Source: a virus
DNA: 35,168 nucleotides
Reading direction: 5' to 3' (one strand)
Virus record (IMG/VR): IMGVR_UViG_3300033148_001126
Coordinates: 1-35,168 of that record
Both the position numbers and the translations under genes were made by a program. Below, one piece after another: positions 699 through 29,796 of this stretch. The first letter of the stretch is position 1. Every line of letters begins with the position of its first letter. The notes under the pieces were generated by a model that saw only the letters and a program-made list of their open reading frames with translations, was not told the DNA's origin and made no database searches.

Positions 699-955
699 TT
701 AAACCCTTTCTTAATATTAGTCTAGCAGATATATATCTAACTGATGAGGTACAGTCCTTCTCACTGGCTTATGTAGGATATGAGGATGTGGAATCTTGCT
801 TACTAGGATTTACTAGGTTGACTTATATAGATGAGGTAGAGGAAGTTAAGTATATCTCTTACTCTGCTGATATCTTATACTTTACATATTGGCTGTATTG
901 TTTTAAGAGCATTTATAACCTCTTTACTAAAGGTAAGAATAAAGATGAAGAATAA
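674..955 (+). CDS. Hypothetical protein, 93 aa
   Basis: Not recognised. The N-terminal half is mixed. Residues about 66-85 are rich in aromatic and hydrophobic residues (Tyr, Phe, Trp, Leu), so a peripheral or single membrane segment is possible. The C-terminus is charged (KGKNKDEE). ATG 674 is chosen because an AAGAAGAG purine run precedes it. ATG 695 (residue 8) is an alternative that would nearly abolish the 25-bp overlap with the phosphoesterase gene. Its stop overlaps the start of the next gene by 11 bp, which suggests translational coupling. Confidence 0.6.
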   Translation: MDKDDKHMIKPFLNISLADIYLTDEVQSFSLAYVGYEDVESCLLGFTRLTYIDEVEEVKYISYSADILYFTYWLYCFKSIYNLFTKGKNKDEE

Positions 956-1484
956 CCCTTATGTTCCTGAGATGTGGTGTTGTACAGAAAAAGTATTTGA
1001 AGGAGCACCAGAGGATTCTATGAAACAGCAGGAAGTAGACTCTTATAAGAAGATGATGGAGTTAGGAGAGAGAATAGATAAAAGTCGACAAGAGGGTAGA
1101 GATCATAATAATAATAAGGGAGCTGTTGTTTGGGCCAATGATGCTTTGGCTAATATAAATCCTTGTAAGGATGTTGTCCTTAAGTATGATACAGGTAAAA
1201 CTATGCATCATCTAGTTCCAATGGATTGTATTACTGGAGTAGCAAAAGTACTGACCTTTGGAGCTAGAAAGTATAGGGCTAATAGTTGGCAAGGTGTAGA
1301 GCCTGAGAGATATTTTTCAGCTGGTCAACGACACCTTGAAGCTATTGCTAATGGGGAAGAGTTAGATTCAGAGAGTAATATACATCATGCCTTTCATTAT
1401 CTATGTAATGCAGTATTTATTACTTGGAACCTTATTAGAGGAAACAATGGTTGGCTAAAGGAGATGTATCAAGGAGGAGAGTAA
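945..1484 (+). CDS. dATP/dGTP diphosphohydrolase-like protein (DUF5664 type)
   Basis: 179 aa. The C-terminal 100 residues match the pattern I know from the phage family once called DUF5664, now named dATP/dGTP diphosphohydrolase N-terminal domain. The pattern runs KYDTGK, then VLTFGARKYRANSW, then RHLEAIANGEELD, ESNIHHAFHYL and a hydrophobic end. The Arg-His, Glu and His-His positions are the likely functional ones. The first 60 residues are charged and poorly conserved looking. The likely role is hydrolysis of purine dNTPs to dNMP, shaping the precursor pool together with the dUTPase and ribonucleotide reductase nearby. The family is inferred from memory of motifs, and substrate specificity is not shown by the sequence. 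The stop codon overlaps the next ATG (TAATG). Confidence 0.65.
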   Translation: MKNNPYVPEMWCCTEKVFEGAPEDSMKQQEVDSYKKMMELGERIDKSRQEGRDHNNNKGAVVWANDALANINPCKDVVLKYDTGKTMHHLVPMDCITGVAKVLTFGARKYRANSWQGVEPERYFSAGQRHLEAIANGEELDSESNIHHAFHYLCNAVFITWNLIRGNNGWLKEMYQGGE

Positions 1485-1750
1485 TGAGTAGTGTATCATC
1501 AAAATTGATACAGCTTGTATATAGAATAGATATGGCAAATATTCCAAAAAGTAATCTAGCATTAAAGATTAACATGAGGGAGTTTAAGGAGCTTCAAGGT
1601 GGGTTAGTTTTATACAACTTTCCTCACAGTAAGGATAATATGTTTGATGATATGAATTTAGTTGTGGTTGAGGATGAAGAAGATAAACTGAAGAAGGAAG
1701 TAAGTAATCTTAAATCTAAGATAAGTAGGCTTAGGGAGATACTTCGATGA
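1484..1750 (+). CDS. Hypothetical protein with C-terminal coiled coil, 88 aa
   Basis: Not recognised. The ATG at 1484 is preferred over the upstream in-frame ATG at 1451. It is preceded by a strong AAGGAGGAGA ribosome binding site and forms a TAATG overlap with the stop of the upstream gene. The last 30 residues (from about VVVEDEEDKL) are heptad-like and rich in Glu, Lys, Leu and Ser, consistent with a short coiled coil that could mediate oligomerisation. The stop overlaps by 4 bp the ATG (1747) from which the dUTPase reading frame originally started. Confidence 0.6.
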   Translation: MSSVSSKLIQLVYRIDMANIPKSNLALKINMREFKELQGGLVLYNFPHSKDNMFDDMNLVVVEDEEDKLKKEVSNLKSKISRLREILR

Positions 1751-2206
1751 CCCGATGGCTAAAATATCTGAAAGTCAGAGAGGGAGTACCAACCCCCAAG
1801 TATCAGACAGAAGGATCAGCAGACAGAAGGATCAGCAGGGTTTGATCTTAGTGCTATGATAGATGGCCCATTGATCCTCTATGCTGGATGCATTGAGATG
1901 ATCCCTACTGGACTAGCTATCCAATTACCTAATAGGATGTTTGAAGGGCAGGTTAGGCCAAGGAGTGGATTAGCAATCAAGTATGGTATTACAGTAGTTA
2001 ATAGTCCGGGAACTATAGACTCTGATTATACTGGAGAGATTAAGGTAGGATTAATTAACCTTAGTAATGATGCTTATAAGATTATACCTGGGGACAGGAT
2101 TGCACAATTGGTTGTGTGTCCTATTCATCCTTGTATCTTAAAAGAAATGGAGGATTTAGATGACACAGATAGAGGGTCAAACGGATTTGGTAGTAGTGGA
2201 ATATAA
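1747..2206 (+). pseudogene. dut: dUTPase (dut) split by a 16-bp tandem duplication
   Basis: All five trimeric dUTPase motifs are present: motif 1 AGFDLSA (1835-1855), motif 2 PRSGLA, motif 3 GTIDSDYTGEIKVGLIN, motif 4 GDRIAQLVV and motif 5 RGSNGFGSSG. They lie in two reading frames. From ATG 1747 the frame reads MTRWLKYLKVREGVPTPKYQ and on to QTEGSA, then hits TGA at 1843-1845. The rest is in the +1 frame. The break is caused by two perfect copies of CAGACAGAAGGATCAG at 1804-1819 and 1820-1835. Deleting one copy restores a 147-aa protein of normal dUTPase length. As it stands, only ATG 1856 could start the 116-aa remainder. That start has no ribosome binding site, and the product would lack motif 1, whose Asp helps hold magnesium and substrate. 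It is either a true mutation or an assembly error. Confidence 0.9.
1804..1835. repeat. 16-bp perfect tandem duplication inside dut
   Basis: CAGACAGAAGGATCAG occurs twice head to tail with no mismatch and no spacer. Sixteen is not a multiple of three, so the duplication shifts the dUTPase frame by +1. The final CAG is followed by another CAG, so the repeat boundary is ambiguous by a few bases. Slipped-strand replication or misassembly would both produce this. Confidence 0.95.
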
Positions 2207-2402
2207 AGAGATACCAGCTATTACTTTAATGAGGAGTCCTAAGAGAGCATATGATGAGGATTTTGATGAATATAAGCAGGAGATGAAGGTAATGAAGAAG
2301 GCACAGAAAGCTATTAGCTGCTATGGAGTTACCGCTGCTACCTTAACTTGTGAAGTAGATCTTAAAGATAATATCTTAGGGGTGGCTAGATATCATGGCT
2401 AA
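2160..2402 (+). CDS. Hypothetical protein, 80 aa
   Basis: Not recognised. It starts inside the last 47 bp of the dUTPase frame. The ATG at 2160 is supported by GGAGG seven bases upstream (AATGGAGGATTTAG before the ATG). The middle of the protein is acidic then basic (DEDFDEYKQEMKVMKKAQK), probably helical. The C-terminus resembles a short beta hairpin (LTCEVDLKDN). The first 15 residues are read from the codons of dUTPase motif 5, so both proteins constrain this sequence. The stop overlaps the next small gene by 8 bp. Confidence 0.6.
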   Translation: MTQIEGQTDLVVVEYKEIPAITLMRSPKRAYDEDFDEYKQEMKVMKKAQKAISCYGVTAATLTCEVDLKDNILGVARYHG

Positions 2403-2783: not shown

Positions 2784-2987
2784 ATGGCAGAGGGTAAGAT
2801 AAAGAGGAATATAATTAAATGTTTATTCTGTGAGGATATTATTGAGTCTACACATGTGCATGATTATATAGAATGTAAGTGTGGGACTGTAGCTGTTGAT
2901 GGTGGGGTTGATTATCTTAGGAGAATGTGGCCCCCATATACATTAGCTGAAATCTGTTATGAAGAGATGAGTGAGTTTCATGATTAA
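2784..2987 (+). CDS. Small zinc-finger-like phage protein, 67 aa
   Basis: Contains KCLFCEDIIESTHVHDY, then ECKCGTVAVDGGVDYLRR. This is a CxxC pair followed by CxC, with two histidines between, a layout I associate with a widespread family of small phage proteins of unknown function. The four cysteines probably bind one zinc. It starts immediately after the zinc ribbon gene, with GGAGG near the end of that gene serving as ribosome binding site. Its last codons overlap the start of the ribonucleotide reductase gene. Confidence 0.65.
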   Translation: MAEGKIKRNIIKCLFCEDIIESTHVHDYIECKCGTVAVDGGVDYLRRMWPPYTLAEICYEEMSEFHD

Positions 2988-4869
2988 GGATGTGTACGAG
3001 GATTACATTTATCTTAGTAAGTATGCTAGGTGGCTAGAAGACAAAGGCAGGAGAGAGACTTGGGAGGAAACAGTAGATAGATTAATATCCTTCTTATCTA
3101 CTAAGGTTCCAGAGAACCTAAAGGAGGTGCTACATACGAAGATAGCAGATGCTATCCTTAATAAAGATATCATGCCCTCTATGAGGCTTATGATGACTGC
3201 TGGCAAGGCAGCAGAAAGATGTAATACAGTAGCCTACAATTGTGCTGGAATCGCTGTAGATACTCCTAGAGTCTTCGATGAGGTCTTCTATATACTTATG
3301 GGCGGATCTGGAGTAGGGTTCTCAGTAGAGAGGCAGTATATTAACAAGCTATCTACCATAGCAGAGGACTTCTATGAGACTGATACAATTATTAAAGTTC
3401 AAGATTCTAGGACCGGATGGGCTAAAGCGCTTAAAGAACTTATCGCTCTTTTGTATAATGGTGATATTCCCAAGTTTGATGTTAACAAGGTTCGTAGCGC
3501 CGGCCAGCGTCTCAAGACTATGGGAGGTAGAGCTAGTGGGCCTGATCCACTGGTTAAGTTATTCGACTATGCTATTATTTTGTTTAAGAAAGCAGCAGGG
3601 AGGAAACTAAATAGCCTTGAATGTCATGATTTAATTTGCACTATTGCTGATACTGTTATTGTGGGTGGTGTCAGGAGATCCGCGTGTATTAGTTTTAGTA
3701 ACCTTACTGATGATAGAATGCGCAGAGCTAAGTCTGGTCAGTGGTGGATAGAGAATCCAGAGAGAGCACTATCTAATAATAGTATAATGTTTACGGAGAA
3801 ACCTGATCTTGAAAGTTACACCAAAGAATGGCGAAGTATATATAAGTCAAAGAGTGGAGAGAGGGGTATAGTAAATCAAGAGGCGCTAAAGAGTAAGGTA
3901 GGTGATACAGATTATGATGGAGAGTATCTTTTAAATCCTTGTGCGGAAGCCATTCTCAGGGATTCAGGTGGGTTTTGCAACTTAAGTGAGGTTATTATTA
4001 GACCAAAAGATACATTAGATACACTTAAGGATAAGGTCAGACTTGCAACAATACTTGGAACTATACAATCCACTCTTACTAATTTTAAATATCTTAGAAA
4101 AGTATGGACAGATAATGCTGAGGAAGAAAGATTACTAGGTGTATCCTTAACTGGTATTATGGATCATGCTATAATGTCTGGAGATGTGACTAACGATATA
4201 GATGGTAAGACAATAAAAGATTATTTATTGTTGCTTAAAGATAAAGCATGGACAACTAATCAAGAGGTTGCTAAAGTACTGGATATTGAACCATCTCGTC
4301 AGCTGACATTGATTAAGCCATCAGGTACAGTGTCTCAATTGGTAGGATGTTCCAGTGGCATCCACCCTCGCTATAGTAAGCATTATCAAAGGACGATAGC
4401 ACAGGATATAAAAGATCCTCTATCCTTATTGATGATAGATCAAGGTATTCCATACAATCAGGTTGGAGAGAAGTATTACTTTTATTTCCCAATGGAATCT
4501 CCTAAACATAGTATATTACAGAAAGATATAGATGCTATCCAGCAACTAGAGTTATGGAAAATCTATAGAGACTATTGGTGCGATGGGAATCCCTCTCAAA
4601 CTATTTATTATACTGATGATACCTTCTTAGCAGTACAAGACTGGGTATGGAAGAATTGGGACTCAATTGGTGGACTCTCCTTCTTCCCTATCTCGGATCA
4701 TATTTATGATAAAGCACCTTATAAGGAGATAAATGAGGAAGAGTATAAAGGACTGGTATCCTCTTTTCCTGCTAGTATTGATTGGAGTCTGCTTAATGGA
4801 TATGAGCAAGAAGATGGAACCACAAACAGTCATGAAATCAGTTGTGGTGGAGGACAGTGTGAGTTATAG
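2971..4869 (+). CDS. nrdJ: Adenosylcobalamin-dependent ribonucleoside-triphosphate reductase (class II)
   Basis: 632 aa, related to the monomeric B12-dependent reductase of Lactobacillus leichmannii (739 aa). It reduces NTPs to dNTPs through a thiyl radical made by adenosylcobalamin, without oxygen. Visible active-site features are NPCAE (322-326, radical Cys324 and Glu326), GGFC (Cys336), a likely substrate-proximal cysteine in YNCAG (Cys91), GGSGVGFSVER near 111-121, and the C-terminal redox pair CGGGQC (625 and 630) that receives electrons from thioredoxin. No separate small subunit is needed. The start is GTG 2971 or ATG 2980; GTG has GAAGAG just upstream. The protein is shorter than the L. 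leichmannii enzyme, as is common in phages, but all key residues are retained, so it should be active if the host supplies or salvages B12. Confidence 0.93.
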   Translation: MSFMIKDVYEDYIYLSKYARWLEDKGRRETWEETVDRLISFLSTKVPENLKEVLHTKIADAILNKDIMPSMRLMMTAGKAAERCNTVAYNCAGIAVDTPRVFDEVFYILMGGSGVGFSVERQYINKLSTIAEDFYETDTIIKVQDSRTGWAKALKELIALLYNGDIPKFDVNKVRSAGQRLKTMGGRASGPDPLVKLFDYAIILFKKAAGRKLNSLECHDLICTIADTVIVGGVRRSACISFSNLTDDRMRRAKSGQWWIENPERALSNNSIMFTEKPDLESYTKEWRSIYKSKSGERGIVNQEALKSKVGDTDYDGEYLLNPCAEAILRDSGGFCNLSEVIIRPKDTLDTLKDKVRLATILGTIQSTLTNFKYLRKVWTDNAEEERLLGVSLTGIMDHAIMSGDVTNDIDGKTIKDYLLLLKDKAWTTNQEVAKVLDIEPSRQLTLIKPSGTVSQLVGCSSGIHPRYSKHYQRTIAQDIKDPLSLLMIDQGIPYNQVGEKYYFYFPMESPKHSILQKDIDAIQQLELWKIYRDYWCDGNPSQTIYYTDDTFLAVQDWVWKNWDSIGGLSFFPISDHIYDKAPYKEINEEEYKGLVSSFPASIDWSLLNGYEQEDGTTNSHEISCGGGQCEL

Positions 4870-5416
4870 CCTAGATCCTTGGGATCTACCACCAATTAAA
4901 CCGAGGGTAGTAATAGATAAAACTGAGGGAAGGAGATTACAGAAATTCCTTATGGGAATTAATACAAGAAATCTAAGAGATTTAATAATAAATGTATTGA
5001 CAGATGTAGGACTATACTCTGAAGATACTGAGGAGCTGTTGATGTTAACAGCAGCAGTAGAGAGTAACTTAGGTCACTACTTAAATCAGAATGGAGGGGG
5101 TCCAGCAAGGGGAATCTTTCAGATGGAGCCCACTACAGAGCAGGACATCTTTGATAACTATTTAGTATATAACCCTTCCTTACTTAAGAAGGTAAGAGAG
5201 TATCAAGGATTATTCCCTGAGAAAGAGATGGTATATAATCTTGCTTATCAGATTATTATGGCCAGGATACACTATCTAAGAGTGCCGGAGAGACTACCTT
5301 CTACTGATGATATAGAAGGAGTAGCTGACTATTGGAAGAGATATTACAATACCTATAAGGGTAAGGGTACAGTGGAGAAAGCAGTAAAGAAGTATATCAC
5401 TTATGTGAGTGATTAA
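4859..5416 (+). CDS. Transglycosylase/lysozyme-like lysis protein
   Basis: The conserved segment LTAAVESNLGHYLNQ followed by GGPARGIFQMEP resembles lytic transglycosylase/lysozyme-like domains of phages: the Glu of AAVES is the likely catalytic acid and GIFQMEP the following substrate-binding turn. The start is uncertain. GTG 4859 is preferred because GGAGG lies six bases upstream and the overlap with the reductase is only 11 bp (185 aa). ATG 4796 (GGAG upstream), 4814 and 4832 are alternatives. A more upstream ATG (4733) would add a hydrophobic stretch but is deep in the reductase frame. No convincing signal peptide with the chosen start, so export would need a holin or similar. It is the last gene before the terminator, and converges with the lysis-like cluster on the other strand. 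Confidence 0.65.
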   Translation: MSYSLDPWDLPPIKPRVVIDKTEGRRLQKFLMGINTRNLRDLIINVLTDVGLYSEDTEELLMLTAAVESNLGHYLNQNGGGPARGIFQMEPTTEQDIFDNYLVYNPSLLKKVREYQGLFPEKEMVYNLAYQIIMARIHYLRVPERLPSTDDIEGVADYWKRYYNTYKGKGTVEKAVKKYITYVSD

Positions 5417-12833: not shown

Positions 12834-15800
12834 TTATTCTTCTCTTAACCTCTTTCTTAAAGAGGATAGATTGATCTTACTAATCTTATCCTCTTTCTTC
12901 TTACCTCTATTAAAAGTATTAATCTTTCTATTAATCTCTCTAGCCTTGTCTAAGGAGGCTACATCCTTCTTAGCCATCTTTAGTTCCTTCTCTTTACCTT
13001 GTGGAGTAAGTCTTGCATAAGTCTGCCTACCAAACATAGGAACATATTTCATAGATTTATAACTTACCTCTCCTTGAGCAAGATGAACAACATCACTAAG
13101 GAAGTCATCAGCAAATCTAATAGGGGGCAATTGACCACTAATTAAAGAGTTAAGAATATTCTCTGATTTAAAACCTCTTTCAAGAGAGTACCTATTAAGC
13201 ATCATAAGTTGTAGAAAACTATCTATAACACTATCAGAAAGATCCTTCTCTCTGCCCATTAAGAAATCCTTTATCTCATCTGTACCTGCTCCAGCTAAGG
13301 AGAGTAAAGATATTAGAGCTAGAGACTTCTGGATACCTTTCTTATAATTCTTCTGTTTAAACTCAGTATGTGCCTCATTAAGGGTAGCATTTAGTGCCTT
13401 AATAGCAAAAGACTTTAACATCCAGAAGATCCTTAAGTTACCTGCTCCTAAATACTTCTTAGGCATCTCTGATAAAGAGATAGGCTGATACTCAGATAAT
13501 TCGGCAAATAGAATATCTTGTGCTAACTCATTCTCATGAATAGTATCATTCTTAAAAGCCTTATAAGCAGATTGTAATTCTCTTTCCTTACCAAAATCTT
13601 TAAACTCTTTTACAAAGACCTCCTCACCTTGCTTCAAGATATTTCTTTGTTTAGCTCTGAGGAATACTCCTTTACCAAACAGATCTGTCATCTTTAAACC
13701 AGAGAGAGTTAATACTTTATCTAAATATTTAGTAGTACCACCAGTAGCAAACTCCTTTGCTTGTTGATTTAGGTCGAATAGATCAACTAACTTTTTACCT
13801 TTATCTGTTTTAAGATAATCTCCTATAGCCCCTACAGTATTACCAAGACCACTCTCATAAATAGAGAAGACAGGATCAGCTAATTGAGTTACAGCAGAGG
13901 AGATATTACCAAGAGCAAACATTAAACCAACATTCCTAAACTTAGACACTGGTCCATGCATTCCTCTTTCCTTTAACCTCTCCCTAATCATTTCAATAGC
14001 TTCTCTTTGTTCTCCCTTATCCTTAACATAAGTAGAAATAGTATCAGCAATAGAGTCTTCTAGGATCTTATCCTTATCTGCTAATTGATTAGCTGCTTGA
14101 TCTCTTAGTAGCAAATCCTCCTTAGTAGCCTTATCTTCCATCTTATCTATACGTCTGATCTGTTTAACTAACCTCTGTCTTCTAGTAGCACCTACTAAAG
14201 TATCACTAGCTATCTGAGTATTCATTGTATAGATATGATCTATTAAAGCTGTAACAGGTTCCTCATAAAACCTCATAGCATCAGGGTGAACATTGATAAT
14301 GGACCTCTCTTTTGTAGATCCTGCTCTTGGAAGGTTCTGAAATACACCAGTCTTTAATTGCTTAGAGATATCTTCTAACTCAGCCACCTCACCTCTTGTT
14401 AACTCTTTACCTTCCTTCTTAGCTTCCTCTTCTGCCCTCTTCCTAAACCATTCAGTAAGACCATCTATATCCTTAACCTTACGTGGAAAGTATCCATCAA
14501 TCTTATTGACAATTAAACCAAGGAGTTCTGCCTCCTTCTCAATCCTCTTTAATACTTTTTGTAATGAGGCAAAAGCTTTATCATCATTCAATATCTCTTT
14601 TGCTTTGTCCAATTTCCTGTTGTTTAAGGCATAGAATACTTCTGCCTTCTTACCTTTATCTAATCTTTCATAAGCCTTAATAAATGGTTCAGTACTTTTA
14701 TAATCATTCATATTAGAACGATTAATTTTAGATTCCATTTTTAAGAGCATAACTCTTAATTTAGTATGGATGTTTCTTAACCGATTAGAGATTGGCATTC
14801 CAATATCTTTTATTAATCTACCACTATCCTTGAAAAACTCCTTAATTGTTTCCTTCTTACTAGAGGTATCAACCATCCCCTCTTTAACTAAATTAATCTT
14901 CTGTTCCTCAGTCATAGCAGGAGAAACTTCTTCAACCTTACTAGTAACCTCTTTAAACTCACTTTTAATTAACTGCTCTTGAATAGTCAATGCTTCACTA
15001 AGCAAGGTATATTCATCAGGGTTAAGCCCGAAGACCTTCCCCATCATAGCAATAAATTTATCCCAAAGAGTTTTAATCTTATTAGTAGGTTTATCAACCT
15101 TGATACTTTTAAGGAAATCTTGGAAATCCTTATTAGTTGTCATCTGAGCCATAAACTCATACTCGTTTAATAATCCATAGTAAACATCACCACTATAGAA
15201 ATTAAGATCCTTATTAAAACCTTTTAGATTCTTATTAACTTTCTGTGGGGTCCAGTTCTTTAGTAAGGTCAACTCATCTGAAGAAAGATTAGATCGAGCC
15301 TCTTGGAATAACTCTCCCATCCTAGTAGCAAACCATCCACCCTGCTTATATTTATTAACAGTAAGTGCATGATCTAATTCATGAAGCATTATCTCACTAG
15401 CTTTCTGTTTTCCATAAACATTAATTCCCATACCAATAGTAATCTTATGAGCCTTGTGGTTATAGAAGGATTTAACTCCAGGTGCAATTTCTATACCAAT
15501 ATCACCCATCTGTTTCTTACCAGCTATACCTTTAAGATAAGAGGAGATCTTTCCTAATAAGGAATCATAACCATTTAGTTCACCAGCTACTCTTACTATA
15601 TCATCTGCTGTCTTAATCTCTGATATAAGTTTAAGATCTGCTTGACGTTCTTTAGGAGTTCTGATATCCGTAGCTCCCTTAGTCTTCTTACGAGGTACTC
15701 CAGCAGGAAAGATTTCTTCCTGTATCTGTTGTTGAGCTTGTCCAGCAGCCTTCTTAGCAGTAAGACCAACTCCAGTGAAAGTTTTATCTCCAGCCTTATA

Positions 15801-17816
15801 TATTACAGTAAACTCCTTCTTCCCCTTAGTCTTTACTACAGTAGTATCCATAGTATCAGTACCAAAGGATTCCACCATCTTATCTTTTAAGATTTGGAAG
15901 TCAGGAGACCATGTAGCTTTAGGAGCCACTGTAGGCTTCTTTACAGGCTTTTTAATTGCCTCTGGTATGATGGGAGCCTTAGTAACTAAATCCTTCTTAG
16001 GAGTGGGGAATAGGGCATCTATCCCTATCTTAGTCTCAGGGAACTCCTTAAGAATTATATCGGCATTTTTCCTAGCAATAGATAACTCTTTTGCTGCTAC
16101 CTCTAAATGACCTTTAGCCTCTAAAGCTTTAGCAGTATTAATCTTCTGAGTAACCCCATGGTTTATTACAGCGGTTACTCTTTCATCAGTGACCTTCTCA
16201 CTTATAAAGGATGGCTCTGTTGTTCCTAACTTAGTATGAATATCTTCTAACTTAATAGATGCTTCCTGCTCAGGAGTTAAGTTATTAAGGGCAGCAGTGA
16301 CCTCTTTAAGGGCCTTCTCCTTTGTAATCAGCCCCTCATAGAATCTATCCATAGCAGTCTGAGCTTTTATCTGCTGAGGATTGACCCTTTCCCCTATTAC
16401 TGGAGCTGGTTTAACCGCTTCCTGAAATTCTGTTATTGCTTGTACTGGTTCCTTTGCTACAATTGTAGGTACTTCTCTAGCAGCTTCTTGAGCAGTAAGT
16501 TCCTTCTCAAATACTCTCCTCTCAAGCTCTGGTTGACGTTGGATAGCTCCAGCAGTTAATGTAGTTGGTGCCTCTCTTGGTTTAGGTACAAGCACCTCCT
16601 CCTTCTTAACCTCCTCCTTTGGCACTCTTAGAGGACGATGTGACTTACCTACATCACTTAACTGTTTATCAACAGAAGTTTTTACCTCTTCCATCTTATC
16701 TGGATCTGTAGAAAGAATGTCCTCTTTACTAATACTGATAGGAGTCTCTTGATATACTCTCTCAATATCCTCAGCAGCAGTTATTAGTTCCTCGTTAAAA
16801 TTAACTGGCCCCTTCTCAGATACAATCTTAATAGAGTCATCCCAAATTTTAGCTAACTCAGGATCTTTCTTAGAGAGTATATCACTAACCTCTGTAAACC
16901 CCTCTAGTCTAATAAGTGCATTCTCAGATTTTAATTTATTCTTTAATGTTCTCTTTCTAAAATGAGAGATACTCTGACCAATTCCACCAAAAGCCATAGA
17001 CATAATTATAGAAGGGCCAATAGAGTCTAAGGCAGCAGTACCGATATCTTGAGCACCCTCAATCTCAAAGTCTTGCATCCATTGTGCTTCTAGCCCAGAC
17101 TGAACCATCTCAGTGGGTACTTCAATAGCGCCTGTCTTAAGCATTGCCAGTCCGACACCTTTAGCAGAGGTCTCCGTAAGTTGCTTAATAGCTCCCTTAA
17201 TGCCACCTTTAGCAGCAGTTTTGAATAGAGAGCCAACTACACCACCAGTCATTAACTCTAAGGGGAGGGCAATAGCTTCAATACCTACCTCTGTTAATGC
17301 ACTCTTTCTTGCATAAGACTCTGCCTCTTCTTGAGATAGATTATTAGCCAATCCTTCTTTTAGTTTAGAGCCATAAGTACCAGCACCAAATAATGTAGCC
17401 ATAGTACCTATAGCAGCAGTACCTCCAGCTATAGGTCCAGCAAGGAGTGTGCCAGCAATACCAGCTATAAGAGGGGATAAAGATAATGGAGCACTCTCAG
17501 CAGCACCCATAAAACTTTTCTTTATCCAACCCTCTTTATCATAATACTCTCTAATATCTGGTTGAAGAAACTTTCTCTCTTCTCTTTGTTTACGTGCCCA
17601 CTCATCTAGTCCTGTATCCTCACCAGTCATAGTCTCATAAGCATGACCTCCCATCTCTAATACACGGGCACTACCTCTCCCTAATGCAGATGTTAAATCA
17701 GTAAAGAGCCCCCTATCACCAACATAGAAATCTTTTCCATAGGTAGATTCAGGAAGTTCTCCTGGTTGTGTAGCAGTTGGTATAGCTAATATATCATAAT
17801 TAATCTCTGTTGGCAT
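12834..17816 (-). CDS. Giant virion/ejection protein with HExxH zincin motif, 1660 aa
   Basis: Largest gene in the window. Residues about 105-145 are Gly- and Ala-rich and hydrophobic (LIAGIAGTLLAGPIAGGTAA), and 180-240 contain similar amphipathic stretches. About 350-660 is a charged Pro/Lys/Glu linker region. Residues 812-816 read HELDH followed by AL, an HExxH zinc-metallopeptidase signature, with FNHKAHKITIG-type beta strands just before it. The last 600 residues are mainly helical. By size and position at the end of the ejection-protein genes it is probably the functional counterpart of T7 gp16, injected with the DNA and helping cross the envelope. T7 gp16 carries a transglycosylase; here a peptidase-like domain may take that place. 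The third zinc ligand is not identified. Confidence 0.7.
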   Translation of the reverse strand: MPTEINYDILAIPTATQPGELPESTYGKDFYVGDRGLFTDLTSALGRGSARVLEMGGHAYETMTGEDTGLDEWARKQREERKFLQPDIREYYDKEGWIKKSFMGAAESAPLSLSPLIAGIAGTLLAGPIAGGTAAIGTMATLFGAGTYGSKLKEGLANNLSQEEAESYARKSALTEVGIEAIALPLELMTGGVVGSLFKTAAKGGIKGAIKQLTETSAKGVGLAMLKTGAIEVPTEMVQSGLEAQWMQDFEIEGAQDIGTAALDSIGPSIIMSMAFGGIGQSISHFRKRTLKNKLKSENALIRLEGFTEVSDILSKKDPELAKIWDDSIKIVSEKGPVNFNEELITAAEDIERVYQETPISISKEDILSTDPDKMEEVKTSVDKQLSDVGKSHRPLRVPKEEVKKEEVLVPKPREAPTTLTAGAIQRQPELERRVFEKELTAQEAAREVPTIVAKEPVQAITEFQEAVKPAPVIGERVNPQQIKAQTAMDRFYEGLITKEKALKEVTAALNNLTPEQEASIKLEDIHTKLGTTEPSFISEKVTDERVTAVINHGVTQKINTAKALEAKGHLEVAAKELSIARKNADIILKEFPETKIGIDALFPTPKKDLVTKAPIIPEAIKKPVKKPTVAPKATWSPDFQILKDKMVESFGTDTMDTTVVKTKGKKEFTVIYKAGDKTFTGVGLTAKKAAGQAQQQIQEEIFPAGVPRKKTKGATDIRTPKERQADLKLISEIKTADDIVRVAGELNGYDSLLGKISSYLKGIAGKKQMGDIGIEIAPGVKSFYNHKAHKITIGMGINVYGKQKASEIMLHELDHALTVNKYKQGGWFATRMGELFQEARSNLSSDELTLLKNWTPQKVNKNLKGFNKDLNFYSGDVYYGLLNEYEFMAQMTTNKDFQDFLKSIKVDKPTNKIKTLWDKFIAMMGKVFGLNPDEYTLLSEALTIQEQLIKSEFKEVTSKVEEVSPAMTEEQKINLVKEGMVDTSSKKETIKEFFKDSGRLIKDIGMPISNRLRNIHTKLRVMLLKMESKINRSNMNDYKSTEPFIKAYERLDKGKKAEVFYALNNRKLDKAKEILNDDKAFASLQKVLKRIEKEAELLGLIVNKIDGYFPRKVKDIDGLTEWFRKRAEEEAKKEGKELTRGEVAELEDISKQLKTGVFQNLPRAGSTKERSIINVHPDAMRFYEEPVTALIDHIYTMNTQIASDTLVGATRRQRLVKQIRRIDKMEDKATKEDLLLRDQAANQLADKDKILEDSIADTISTYVKDKGEQREAIEMIRERLKERGMHGPVSKFRNVGLMFALGNISSAVTQLADPVFSIYESGLGNTVGAIGDYLKTDKGKKLVDLFDLNQQAKEFATGGTTKYLDKVLTLSGLKMTDLFGKGVFLRAKQRNILKQGEEVFVKEFKDFGKERELQSAYKAFKNDTIHENELAQDILFAELSEYQPISLSEMPKKYLGAGNLRIFWMLKSFAIKALNATLNEAHTEFKQKNYKKGIQKSLALISLLSLAGAGTDEIKDFLMGREKDLSDSVIDSFLQLMMLNRYSLERGFKSENILNSLISGQLPPIRFADDFLSDVVHLAQGEVSYKSMKYVPMFGRQTYARLTPQGKEKELKMAKKDVASLDKAREINRKINTFNRGKKKEDKISKINLSSLRKRLREE

Positions 17817-17827
17817 ATCGTCCTCTA

Positions 17828-18874
17828 TTATCTATGAGCTTGTTTTATTCCTGCCCCTATATCCCGGAACACATTACCTATGCCACTTAATAATCCAGGG
17901 CTTTCAGCAGGAAACCAACGATTAGATGCAGGATCGAACTCAATCTTTACTCCATTTTTATATCCTATCCTAACTCCATCCTCTACTGTAATATTTGTAA
18001 TCTCTCCTGAAGTTGTAGGAGTAGTGGATTTAGTAGTAGTGGTAGTGGGCCTTTGAGTGAGTCTTTGAAGATTCAGTCTGTAAGCATCTTCAATAGCCTC
18101 TAGTGCTACCTTATTTGTAGCCTTCCCTTTCTCTTGTTTATAGTACTTAGTTAATGTCTTCTCAGTTTTAGGCTCAGTGAAATTAGTATAGATATCTTTA
18201 ATAGCCTTTTTTCTTTTAGGTTCAGTATATAACTCAGAGATTCTCCCACCTGTTGCTCCAACAGGTGCTCCGGCACTAAGGGCCACACTATATTCACTTC
18301 GTATATAATCTGCTCTTTCCTGAGTTTGATCTGGTTCAAATAAATCCTTAGCCTGTTCAGAGATCTTTAGGTAAATATCAGACCTATCTTTAGCAGAAAG
18401 CCCCTTACCTGCAAATTGTCCTTGTGCCTGGATAGCCAAAGTATCATCAATAAACCTCTGATAATCTTCATCACTGCCTCCAAAGTCTTTCTTTGGGAAT
18501 GCAGCAGCTACTTGATTACGAGCATCAATCATAGCTTGCTCTCGTTTAAATTTAGTAGCATAGCTTAGATCTTCTCTAGTATCTTTTCTAGCTGTCTCTA
18601 CTTCCCTTAATCTAAACTCTTGGCCTGCCTCTCTCTCACTAACTTTAAACTCTTCACCAGCAACTCTTTCACTAGCCCTAAACCCTTGTTCACTCTTCTG
18701 TAGTTTAGCGGCCTGAGTATTTCTATAATCAGCTATCTGCTTATCCCTATTCATCTGGATAATATTCTGCATCTGAGAATAATTAAACTTCTCTTGCTCC
18801 TTTAAAGAATCCTTATAGGAAGAGGCAGCCCCACCGATTCCAGATAGTAAACCTCTTGTCCAATCTAGTCCCAT
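17828..18874 (-). CDS. Virion protein with long coiled coil, 348 aa (ejection-type)
   Basis: Starts GLDWTRGLLSGIGGAAS. Residues about 20-115 then form a long charged helix with an internal repeat (ASERVAGEEFKVSEREAGQEFRLRE has two copies of a roughly 9-residue unit). A Thr-rich linker (PTTTTTKSTTPTTSG) precedes a small C-terminal domain, and the end again reads LLSGIGNVFRDIGAGIKQA, echoing the N-terminal LLSGIGG motif. Amphipathic ends with a coiled-coil body suit an internal core or ejection protein, consistent with neighbours on both sides. No named family. Confidence 0.6.
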   Translation of the reverse strand: MGLDWTRGLLSGIGGAASSYKDSLKEQEKFNYSQMQNIIQMNRDKQIADYRNTQAAKLQKSEQGFRASERVAGEEFKVSEREAGQEFRLREVETARKDTREDLSYATKFKREQAMIDARNQVAAAFPKKDFGGSDEDYQRFIDDTLAIQAQGQFAGKGLSAKDRSDIYLKISEQAKDLFEPDQTQERADYIRSEYSVALSAGAPVGATGGRISELYTEPKRKKAIKDIYTNFTEPKTEKTLTKYYKQEKGKATNKVALEAIEDAYRLNLQRLTQRPTTTTTKSTTPTTSGEITNITVEDGVRIGYKNGVKIEFDPASNRWFPAESPGLLSGIGNVFRDIGAGIKQAHR

Positions 18875-26659: not shown

Positions 26660-27471
26660 TTAACCTTTATATGCAAACAGGTCTACCAATGCTTCTGGAC
26701 GTACAACCTTACGACCATATACCCAGAGGGTACGGATATACTGACCGAAAGAGGTAGGAATCGGCAGTTTATCTGTCTTAGAAATCTGCATAGCAAAAGA
26801 GGTAGCCTCTTTAGTGCCAGCTACAATCTCAAAACCAGTATTAGTATTACCATCTGTATTACTAGTTAAGTTATTATTAACATATACCATGGTATTATCT
26901 ACCATACCAATCTTACCATTACGGATAACACCAGTAGGATCACCAGTAATATCTGCACGTTTAAGATCACCAAGCTTCAGCAAGGCAGCATACCAGGAAG
27001 GGATAACAATAAAACGTCCTTCATTACCAATATTCTGCTCATCAAGACACTGATTAACCTCTACAATCTTAGTAATAGCATTAGCAGAGGTTACTGCGAT
27101 AGCATTAGTAGTACCAGGAGTAGCGTTATCCCCAAGATCAATAGAGGAACTAATAGCACCAGCAGTATTACCTTTATTACTTGCATGAGCACCATCACCC
27201 ATGGCATTAAGTACATCTGTATCTACAGCTACACGAAGACGATTAGCGCTATCGGTAGCATACATATCAAGCAGACTAATATCTGCCTGTACTTTATCAA
27301 TATCATCACACTGCCAAGCAGTATACTTAGCCTTATCAATAGTCATGTTAGTAGAATCATTAGCAGGAACCTGATAAGTTACAGTTCCACCAACAGTATA
27401 GTCACCTACTGTGATCTCAGGTGCCTGACGAATATAAATCTTATCGCCCTGATTCTTAAACTCGCCTTCAT
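26660..27471 (-). CDS. Major capsid protein, exon 2 (residues 52-321)
   Basis: Second exon of the coat protein; the complete protein is 321 aa after splicing. The exon starts with AT at 27471-27470, which completes a Tyr codon with the T left by exon 1, then reads EGEFKNQGDKIYIRQAPEI. Together with exon 1 this gives NTDYEGEFKNQGDK, the conserved N-arm region of this podovirus coat-protein family. Further on are TAWQCDDIDKVQ, a loop region, and GQYIRTLWVYGRKVVRPEAL near the end. The ATG at 27346 inside this exon could be mistaken for the start, but 41 in-frame family-like codons precede it. The gene follows the scaffold gene and precedes the head-tail adaptor gene. Confidence 0.88.
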
Positions 27472-28315
27472 CTTTATCTTATGTTATAGTTTTTAATATC
27501 TATAACCTTACAGTTTTCTTTCCTGTAAGAAGAGACTATATCATCACCCTTAATCTTAAGGGGTTGTGCGCTCGTGTTATAATAGAATCTTTGTTTATAA
27601 GCCATAGAAGGTATGATATATGGATGTATAATCCTATGAAACTTTTTACCCTCTTTATGAAAACATCTTATAGAATAATTATTTCCATCTTTAAAAGATG
27701 TAAACTTTATATTCCAAGTGTCTTTAAAATACTTACAAATATTATTAGCAATTTCTTTACTGCAACAAGTATGAATATTAGTCCTAGCAGAAGAGCAAGT
27801 ACCATCTTTATATCTATTATTTGCTATCAAAGAACCATCATCCATAAACCAAATAGCTAAAGCTTGTGGTGTTAAATAAGTCAGATACTCATACTTATTA
27901 GGGTATAACCATCTTCTAAGAACTTTAAAATATCTATGACCTACTTCACACCTAACTTGAGGATAACCTTTATCACCAAGATAGTGTACATACTCATTAA
28001 TCTTAGGCTTCTTTCCACCTAATAAAGAATGAAGTAAGTCTCTTTTATATATTAAATACTCTTCTTGTTTCTTAGAATGACATAACTTTAAAGATAAATC
28101 CCTTCTATGAATGTATCCATCACCAATTACTACAGCGATAAGAATTGCTTTTTTATTACGCTTCATAACGACCTCCTGGCCTGAAGTAGTACTCTATTAT
28201 ATTAGTCGTTGAACCTTCCGCTTACATCACGGCTTGGCTGCTGATTCCCATTACAGGGTTCCAGCAATTCACACAATTTAATCGAGAGGATCTCTCCTCA
28301 AGTGACCAAAAATTT
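27472..28315 (-). ncRNA. Group I self-splicing intron in the major capsid gene
   Basis: 844 nt. The 5' exon ends TGACT; the U (28316) pairs as U-G with the internal guide GGTCA (28307-28303), giving a 5-bp P1. The intron ends in G (27472). Core elements on the - strand: P2 hairpin GAGGA-GAGA-TCCTC; the P/Q region with GAATTGCTGGAACCC and AATCAGCAGCCAAGCC (28246-28231); the R element GGTTCAACGACTA (28215-28203); and the P7 3' strand GTCGTT (28172-28167), complementary to AACGAC in R. These are typical of phage and bacterial group I introns. Exon 1 runs into a stop codon immediately without splicing. The homing endonuclease lies 3' of the core, and its stop codon ends two bases before the 3' splice site. 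Confidence 0.92.
27474..28166 (-). CDS. Intron-encoded LAGLIDADG homing endonuclease, 230 aa
   Basis: Two LAGLIDADG motifs: AILIAVVIGDG (7-17, Asp16) and LAIWFMDDG (103-111, Asp110), about 95 residues apart. This spacing is that of single-chain two-motif enzymes. After the first motif comes YIHRRDLSLKLCHSKKQEEY, a typical DNA-contacting strand region. The enzyme should cut intron-less capsid alleles near the insertion site so that repair copies the intron. ATG 28166 has a strong AGGAGGT ribosome binding site, part of which overlaps the P7 pairing of the intron, so translation may depend on how the RNA folds. The reading frame ends in TAA two bases before the splice site. It has no frame continuity with either exon, so this is not an intein. 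Confidence 0.9.
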   Translation of the reverse strand: MKRNKKAILIAVVIGDGYIHRRDLSLKLCHSKKQEEYLIYKRDLLHSLLGGKKPKINEYVHYLGDKGYPQVRCEVGHRYFKVLRRWLYPNKYEYLTYLTPQALAIWFMDDGSLIANNRYKDGTCSSARTNIHTCCSKEIANNICKYFKDTWNIKFTSFKDGNNYSIRCFHKEGKKFHRIIHPYIIPSMAYKQRFYYNTSAQPLKIKGDDIVSSYRKENCKVIDIKNYNIR

Positions 28316-28469
28316 AGTCAGTATTACATACCTCATTATATACAGACTGAGCCCAAAAGTCATAAAAAACTTTCATACTATAAAGTTCTGGAACATAATT
28401 AGAGGTTGCCCAATCAGTTCCGCCACCAGTTACGTTAGCATCATGAGATGCCTGTCGTGTAATTCCCAT
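28316..28469 (-). CDS. Major capsid protein, exon 1 (residues 1-51 plus one base)
   Basis: ATG 28469 (AAGGAG ribosome binding site upstream) starts MGITRQASHDANVTGGGTDW, followed by NYVPELYSMKVFYDFWAQSV and YNEVCNTD. These are the expected first 51 residues of this coat-protein type: a flexible N-arm, the PE-x-YSM motif, and NEVCNTD. After the final Asp comes T and then the intron; unspliced reading gives TAA at once. Splicing 28316 to 27471 makes Tyr and joins to EGEFKNQGDK, for a total of 322 codons including stop, an exact multiple of three. Confidence 0.9.
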
Positions 28470-28487
28470 CTATAAATCTCCTTATAA

Positions 28488-29710: not shown

Positions 29711-29796
29711 TGGAAGAAGGTAGACGAATCGAACGCCCATGTTTTACCATGACCAAGGGTTCAAGCCTTGTTGCCATCCACTTAGCATTACCTTCC
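29711..29796 (-). tRNA. tRNA-Ser (anticodon UGA), 86 nt
   Basis: A complete class II cloverleaf on the - strand. The acceptor is GGAAGGT with ACCTTCT (first pair G-U). The D stem is TGCT/GGCA with loop AAGTGGAT. The anticodon stem is CAAGG/CCTTG, perfect, with loop CTTGAAC, anticodon TGA. The long variable arm is GTCATGGTAAAACAT. The T arm is GGGCG-TTCGATT-CGTCT. The discriminator is T and the encoded 3' end CCA. It reads serine UCA codons. The discriminator U is unusual for bacterial tRNA-Ser, where G is normal. It is transcribed with the late genes between the decoration-like and scaffold genes, so RNase P and other processing must cut it out of the late message. Confidence 0.88.

Follow-up and report, generated by a model that had tools for sequence, protein, structure and literature searches.

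A perfect 16-bp tandem duplication separates the start codon from the five conserved motifs of a phage dUTPase gene

Introduction

Does a phage dUTPase gene that carries a short, perfect, frame-breaking tandem duplication represent a broken gene, a gene expressed by unusual means, a reversible switch, or an error in the sequence? The enzyme dUTPase prevents uracil from entering DNA. The gene in question sits in a nucleotide-metabolism cluster of a linear virus record, an uncultivated IMG/VR fragment of 35,168 bases with 38% G+C that is referred to in its entirety as the window. The analysis presented here points to an ordinary recent loss-of-function mutation of the dUTPase gene, and not a new system, as the probable explanation.

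Results

Two perfect adjacent copies of CAGACAGAAGGATCAG were localized to positions 1804–1819 and 1820–1835, which confirms the perfect 16-bp tandem duplication reported in the preliminary description of this DNA. The repeated string comprises 19 bases at period 16, corresponding to 2.2 copies of the 16-bp unit, and it displays the features of a slippage-type tandem duplication: perfect adjoining copies, a CAG triplet at both ends and a short homology at the junction. No other perfect tandem repeat in the 35-kb window exceeds 9 bp: a scan of periods 8–100 otherwise returned only two 9-bp units, and no further occurrence of CAGACAGAAGGATCAG was found on either strand of the window. A chance origin of the repeat was rejected, as the analytic expectation for runs of at least 19 at any period of 8–100 is 2.7e-5 for the window, and none of 200 Markov shuffles of the window produced a run of at least 14. 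A separate, imperfect 33-bp tandem repeat (2.3 copies, 74%) was observed in frame inside a coding gene at 18612–18687 on the minus strand.

The duplication shifts the dUTPase frame by +1; since 16 is not divisible by 3, ribosomes that initiate at ATG 1747, a codon overlapping the stop of the upstream gene (ATGA), are carried out of frame and terminate at position 1843. The start-codon frame thus specifies 25 residues resembling a dUTPase N-terminus, followed by seven unrelated residues and the TGA (Table 1). It had been proposed that the five dUTPase motifs lie in two frames, and this is not so: all five (1832–2200) are contained in a single frame that is open from 1772 to 2206, and only ATG 1747 and the N-terminal stretch MTRWLKYLKVREGVPTPKYQTEGSA fall outside it. 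The lesion separates the start codon and some 25 N-terminal residues from the enzyme. The predicted length of 147 aa upon removal of one copy agrees with the coordinates (460 - 16 = 444 nt). No ATG, GTG or TTG is present in the motif frame between 1772 and 1855, hence none ahead of motif I, and because the first ordinary start (ATG 1856) follows motif I, there is no conventional product that carries all five motifs.

Coding signal was positive or neutral in frame 1 up to about position 1792 and strongly negative from about 1807, and in frame 2 it was positive from about 1778 to the end of the gene, with one brief dip near 2093; this change of frame at the repeat counts for a former single-frame gene. 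The two peptides also match adjoining parts of a dUTPase profile built from 34 relatives, the upstream peptide at positions 1–26 (weakly, 4.2 bits) and the downstream peptide at positions 18–143 (155.5 bits).

Table 1. Features of the dUTPase locus and its neighbourhood, in window coordinates
Feature	Position	Strand	Basis
Gene for a dATP/dGTP pyrophosphohydrolase-like protein (PF18909), same cluster	945–1484	+	Domain search
Start-codon frame of the dUTPase gene: ATG 1747, 32 codons (MTRWLKYLKVREGVPTPKYQTEGSADRRISRV), TGA 1843–1845	1747–1845	+	Translation; profile positions 1–26
Motif frame, open throughout and containing the five dUTPase motifs; stop 2204–2206	1772–2206	+	Translation; Pfam PF00692, 3e-29
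Copy 1 of CAGACAGAAGGATCAG	1804–1819	+	Sequence, repeat scan
Copy 2 of CAGACAGAAGGATCAG	1820–1835	+	Sequence, repeat scan
Motif I, SAGFDLSA	1832–1855	+	Translation
CAG after copy 2, the first three bases of the unit; 3-bp junction microhomology	1836–1838	+	Run of 19 at period 16; sequence
ATG 1856, immediately downstream of motif I: first conventional start of the motif frame, giving 116 aa lacking motif I	1856–2206	+	ORF list, translation
Motif II, RPRSGLA	1955–1975	+	Translation
Motif III, GTIDSDYTGEIKV	2009–2047	+	Translation
Motif IV, GDRIAQL	2090–2110	+	Translation
Gene next downstream, beginning inside the dUTPase 3' end, GGAGG-type ribosome site before its start; unknown function	2160–2402	+	ORF list, sequence
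Motif V, DRGSNGFGSSG	2168–2200	+	Translation
Intact ribonucleotide reductase (632 aa) of this cluster, B12-dependent-type domains	2971–4869	+	ORF list, domain search

The match of the motif frame to Pfam PF00692 (3e-29), the ordered occurrence of all five conserved motifs in a single frame, and the matches of that frame to PDB entries, of which 7n56 (9e-35) is the best solved relative, settle the predicted family as that of the type I (trimeric) dUTPases. No in-frame start precedes motif I, and the locus is therefore classed as a broken gene of the PF00692 family and not as a working member.

We considered whether a useful protein might still be made from the two-copy gene, through a +1 frameshift ahead of TGA 1843, initiation at the non-standard codon ATC 1802, or reinitiation at ATG 1856, which lies 10 bases past the stop. 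A full-length chain would result from a +1 shift at any point from 1772 to 1843, since the motif frame is already open at 1772, and two candidate shift sites were recognised: CCC followed by A (1795–1798) and the faintly RF2-like GTT-TGA-T (1840–1846). However, a shift at GTT-TGA would place five extra residues inside motif I, and an RF2-like frameshift at this site was rejected as the main reading because it lacks a spaced upstream AGGGGG-like element, has a codon other than the CTT of the RF2 site, and shows no conservation. Starts at ATC are very rare, which counts against ATC 1802, whereas ATG 1856 has no good ribosome site and would yield a product lacking motif I. The two-frame layout, which in a programmed +1 frameshift gene of the RF2 type would be kept in relatives, was found in none of the other 114 dUTPase loci. 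Continued expression of a useful protein by any of these routes is, on balance, improbable.

Comparison of 115 dUTPase loci, the window included, identified a single interrupted gene, that of the window; some loci are overlapping pieces of the same contigs, and the number of independent genes is somewhat smaller. Every other gene compared is complete in one frame except that of L116, which is cut by a contig end and not interrupted, and L026 and L027 had been flagged solely because their start codon falls one residue inside the profile match. The closest dUTPases in the viral contigs and phage records share at most 56% protein identity with that of the window, and the comparison with related phages called for in the preliminary description could be run only at this distance, where no dUTPase has the duplication. 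At the affected stretch, the uninterrupted gene of L020 reads PKYATEGSSGMDL where the window reads PKYQTEGSA / GFDL. DNA searches of phage and plasmid records returned no near relative, nor did a pattern allowing one or two copies in the viral contigs. The terminase search returned one relative (54%), and no relatives were found for the portal in the viral contigs or for the major capsid protein in bacterial or archaeal genomes. No near relative thus appeared in the phage, plasmid, viral and bacterial-genome collections searched; relatives with at most 56% identity have uninterrupted genes, and a single copy is the presumed ancestral state.

Several further features of the window were recorded in their own right. 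The major capsid gene (26660–28470, minus strand) appears to be interrupted by a group I intron. Its C-terminal part, at about 26660–27460 on the minus strand, matches the PHROG major head protein (7.6e-39), a LAGLIDADG endonuclease gene (27474–28166, minus strand) lies within the putative intron, and a match to Rfam RF00028 at 28186–28321 scored 36.1 bits (E 2.8e-7), under the gathering score of 50. A protein of 1660 aa encoded among the structural genes (12834–17816, minus strand) has only a weak PHROG match (5.7e-8) and an unknown function. The phage also encodes a tRNA-Ser with anticodon TGA (29711–29796, minus strand).

A serious rival to a real mutation is an artefact, in which the phage has one copy and the second arose through library amplification, contig joining or gap filling. 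That the source record is an uncultivated linear IMG/VR fragment counts for this reading. To gauge the base rate, 125 sequences (1.62 Mb, some overlapping) were scanned for perfect tandem duplications of period 8–80. Periods that are a multiple of three accounted for 59 duplications, and the other two classes for 18 and 15. An open frame that switches at a duplication was encountered in few cases, namely the window, two in L044, and one each in L017 (a hit on both strands), L019 (where the dUTPase gene of that locus has its stop codon) and L046 (a CAG-rich simple run). L044, IMG/VR contig 3300033153_003091, encodes a relative of the reductase of the window in four pieces (3489–5412) with three frame changes, two of which fall at perfect tandem duplications, one of 43 bp (4559) and the other of 29 bp (5159); the third lesion is a gap near 3974, and another perfect duplication, of 17 bp, is located upstream at 1078. 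So many lesions in 6.7 kb suggest that the breaks in this reductase gene probably stem from faulty assembly, and hence that such errors can occur in this collection.

For the window, in contrast to L044, only one lesion was recognised in 35 kb. The reductase and terminase genes of the window are open over their full length, which speaks against generally poor sequence. A repeat of 19 bases would be too short for an assembly-graph loop at k of at least 21, if the assembly used such values, and a single-copy genome should offer no repeated string on which to loop, so that the junction k-mers would require real molecules. The 3-bp microhomology fits a polymerase slip, although amplification could also produce such a slip. 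Taken together, an artefact appears unlikely, but not to the degree of the other alternatives to a real mutation.

Returning to a recent loss-of-function mutation, we envisage that a former single-frame trimeric (type I) phage dUTPase gene took the 16-bp duplication just before motif I, probably when replication slipped from one CAG triplet to another at a distance of 16 bp; the 3-bp CAG microhomology at the junction fits strand slippage. As judged from the sequence, the sequenced genome would yield a 32-residue peptide and no active dUTPase, a loss that might be tolerable if the host supplies its own dUTPase or if some phages in the population are unmutated. All five motifs are retained in the motif frame, which is free of stops. 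If 42 of the 126 codons are taken as motif, a random substitution has a chance of about 28% of creating a stop or a motif change, and up to about nine neutral substitutions (2.4% of sites) are compatible with zero damage at the 5% level, which is a rough bound. The absence of damage in the motif frame thus indicates that relaxed selection, if any, is young. Part of the original interpretation is upheld, namely a former type I dUTPase with a frame-breaking perfect duplication, nothing else wrong and an event that is either recent or an artefact; its distribution of the motifs over two frames is not supported. In a single genome, fixation, polymorphism and artefact would look alike.

Short tandem duplications can revert through slippage, which is established genetics, and the gene could be repaired, like any gene with a short tandem duplication, by simple RecA-independent deletion between the copies; use of such repair by the phage as a switch would be conjecture. 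In a contingency-like switch, the copy number of the 16-bp unit would switch dUTPase production within the phage population between on and off, perhaps in answer to dUTPase-detecting satellites or host sensors. Contingency loci have longer arrays, of many repeat units, whereas the window has only 2.2 copies, whose contraction to one is practically one-way. Among one to four copies, only one and four keep the frame, and no relative has a dUTPase frame broken at the duplication site. The contingency-like reversibility raised in the preliminary description is thus weakly supported, since two copies with one-way contraction do not make a cycling switch. Phages that escape SaPI satellites with a frameshifted dut do exist: in laboratory evolution against these satellites, for which the phage dUTPase is the inducer, some escape phages had nonsense and frameshift dut mutations (PMC4619825). 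We nevertheless regard a switch as very improbable, and still less is to be expected of a population that keeps both one-copy and two-copy dUTPase alleles, with the latter as a reversible escape from a host or satellite dUTPase sensor. A search of the open literature gave no usable rates at which short tandem repeats revert in phages.

Discussion

If the duplication is real, the window presents a freshly broken dUTPase gene alongside a reductase gene that the phage has kept, and a small case for studying when phages manage without a dUTPase. Because the L044 cases, among the few frame-breaking ones in 1.6 Mb, look faulty, a perfect tandem duplication seen in one viral contig should be verified in the reads before it is given a biological interpretation.

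In comparison with known systems, the locus shares with the trimeric dUTPases of PF00692 all five motifs in order and differs in that the 16-bp duplication has put its start codon and N-terminus in another frame than the motifs. The L044 reductase is likewise a conserved nucleotide-metabolism gene broken by perfect tandem duplications, but with at least three lesions in one gene it is more like a faulty assembly. With the phage dut null alleles selected by SaPI satellites (PMC4619825), the locus has in common a frameshifted phage dUTPase gene; a satellite, or selection by one, would be conjecture for the window. Frameshift indels have been described as reversible gene silencing in Mycobacterium tuberculosis (PMC8339072), where the likeness is a frame-breaking indel that could later be undone; that work drew on thousands of genomes, and the window is one genome with no sign of reversal. 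The locus also matches frameshifts by slippage-type short tandem duplication, with which it shares perfect adjacent copies, a 3-bp microhomology and a length that is not a multiple of 3, and from which it differs only in the gene affected.
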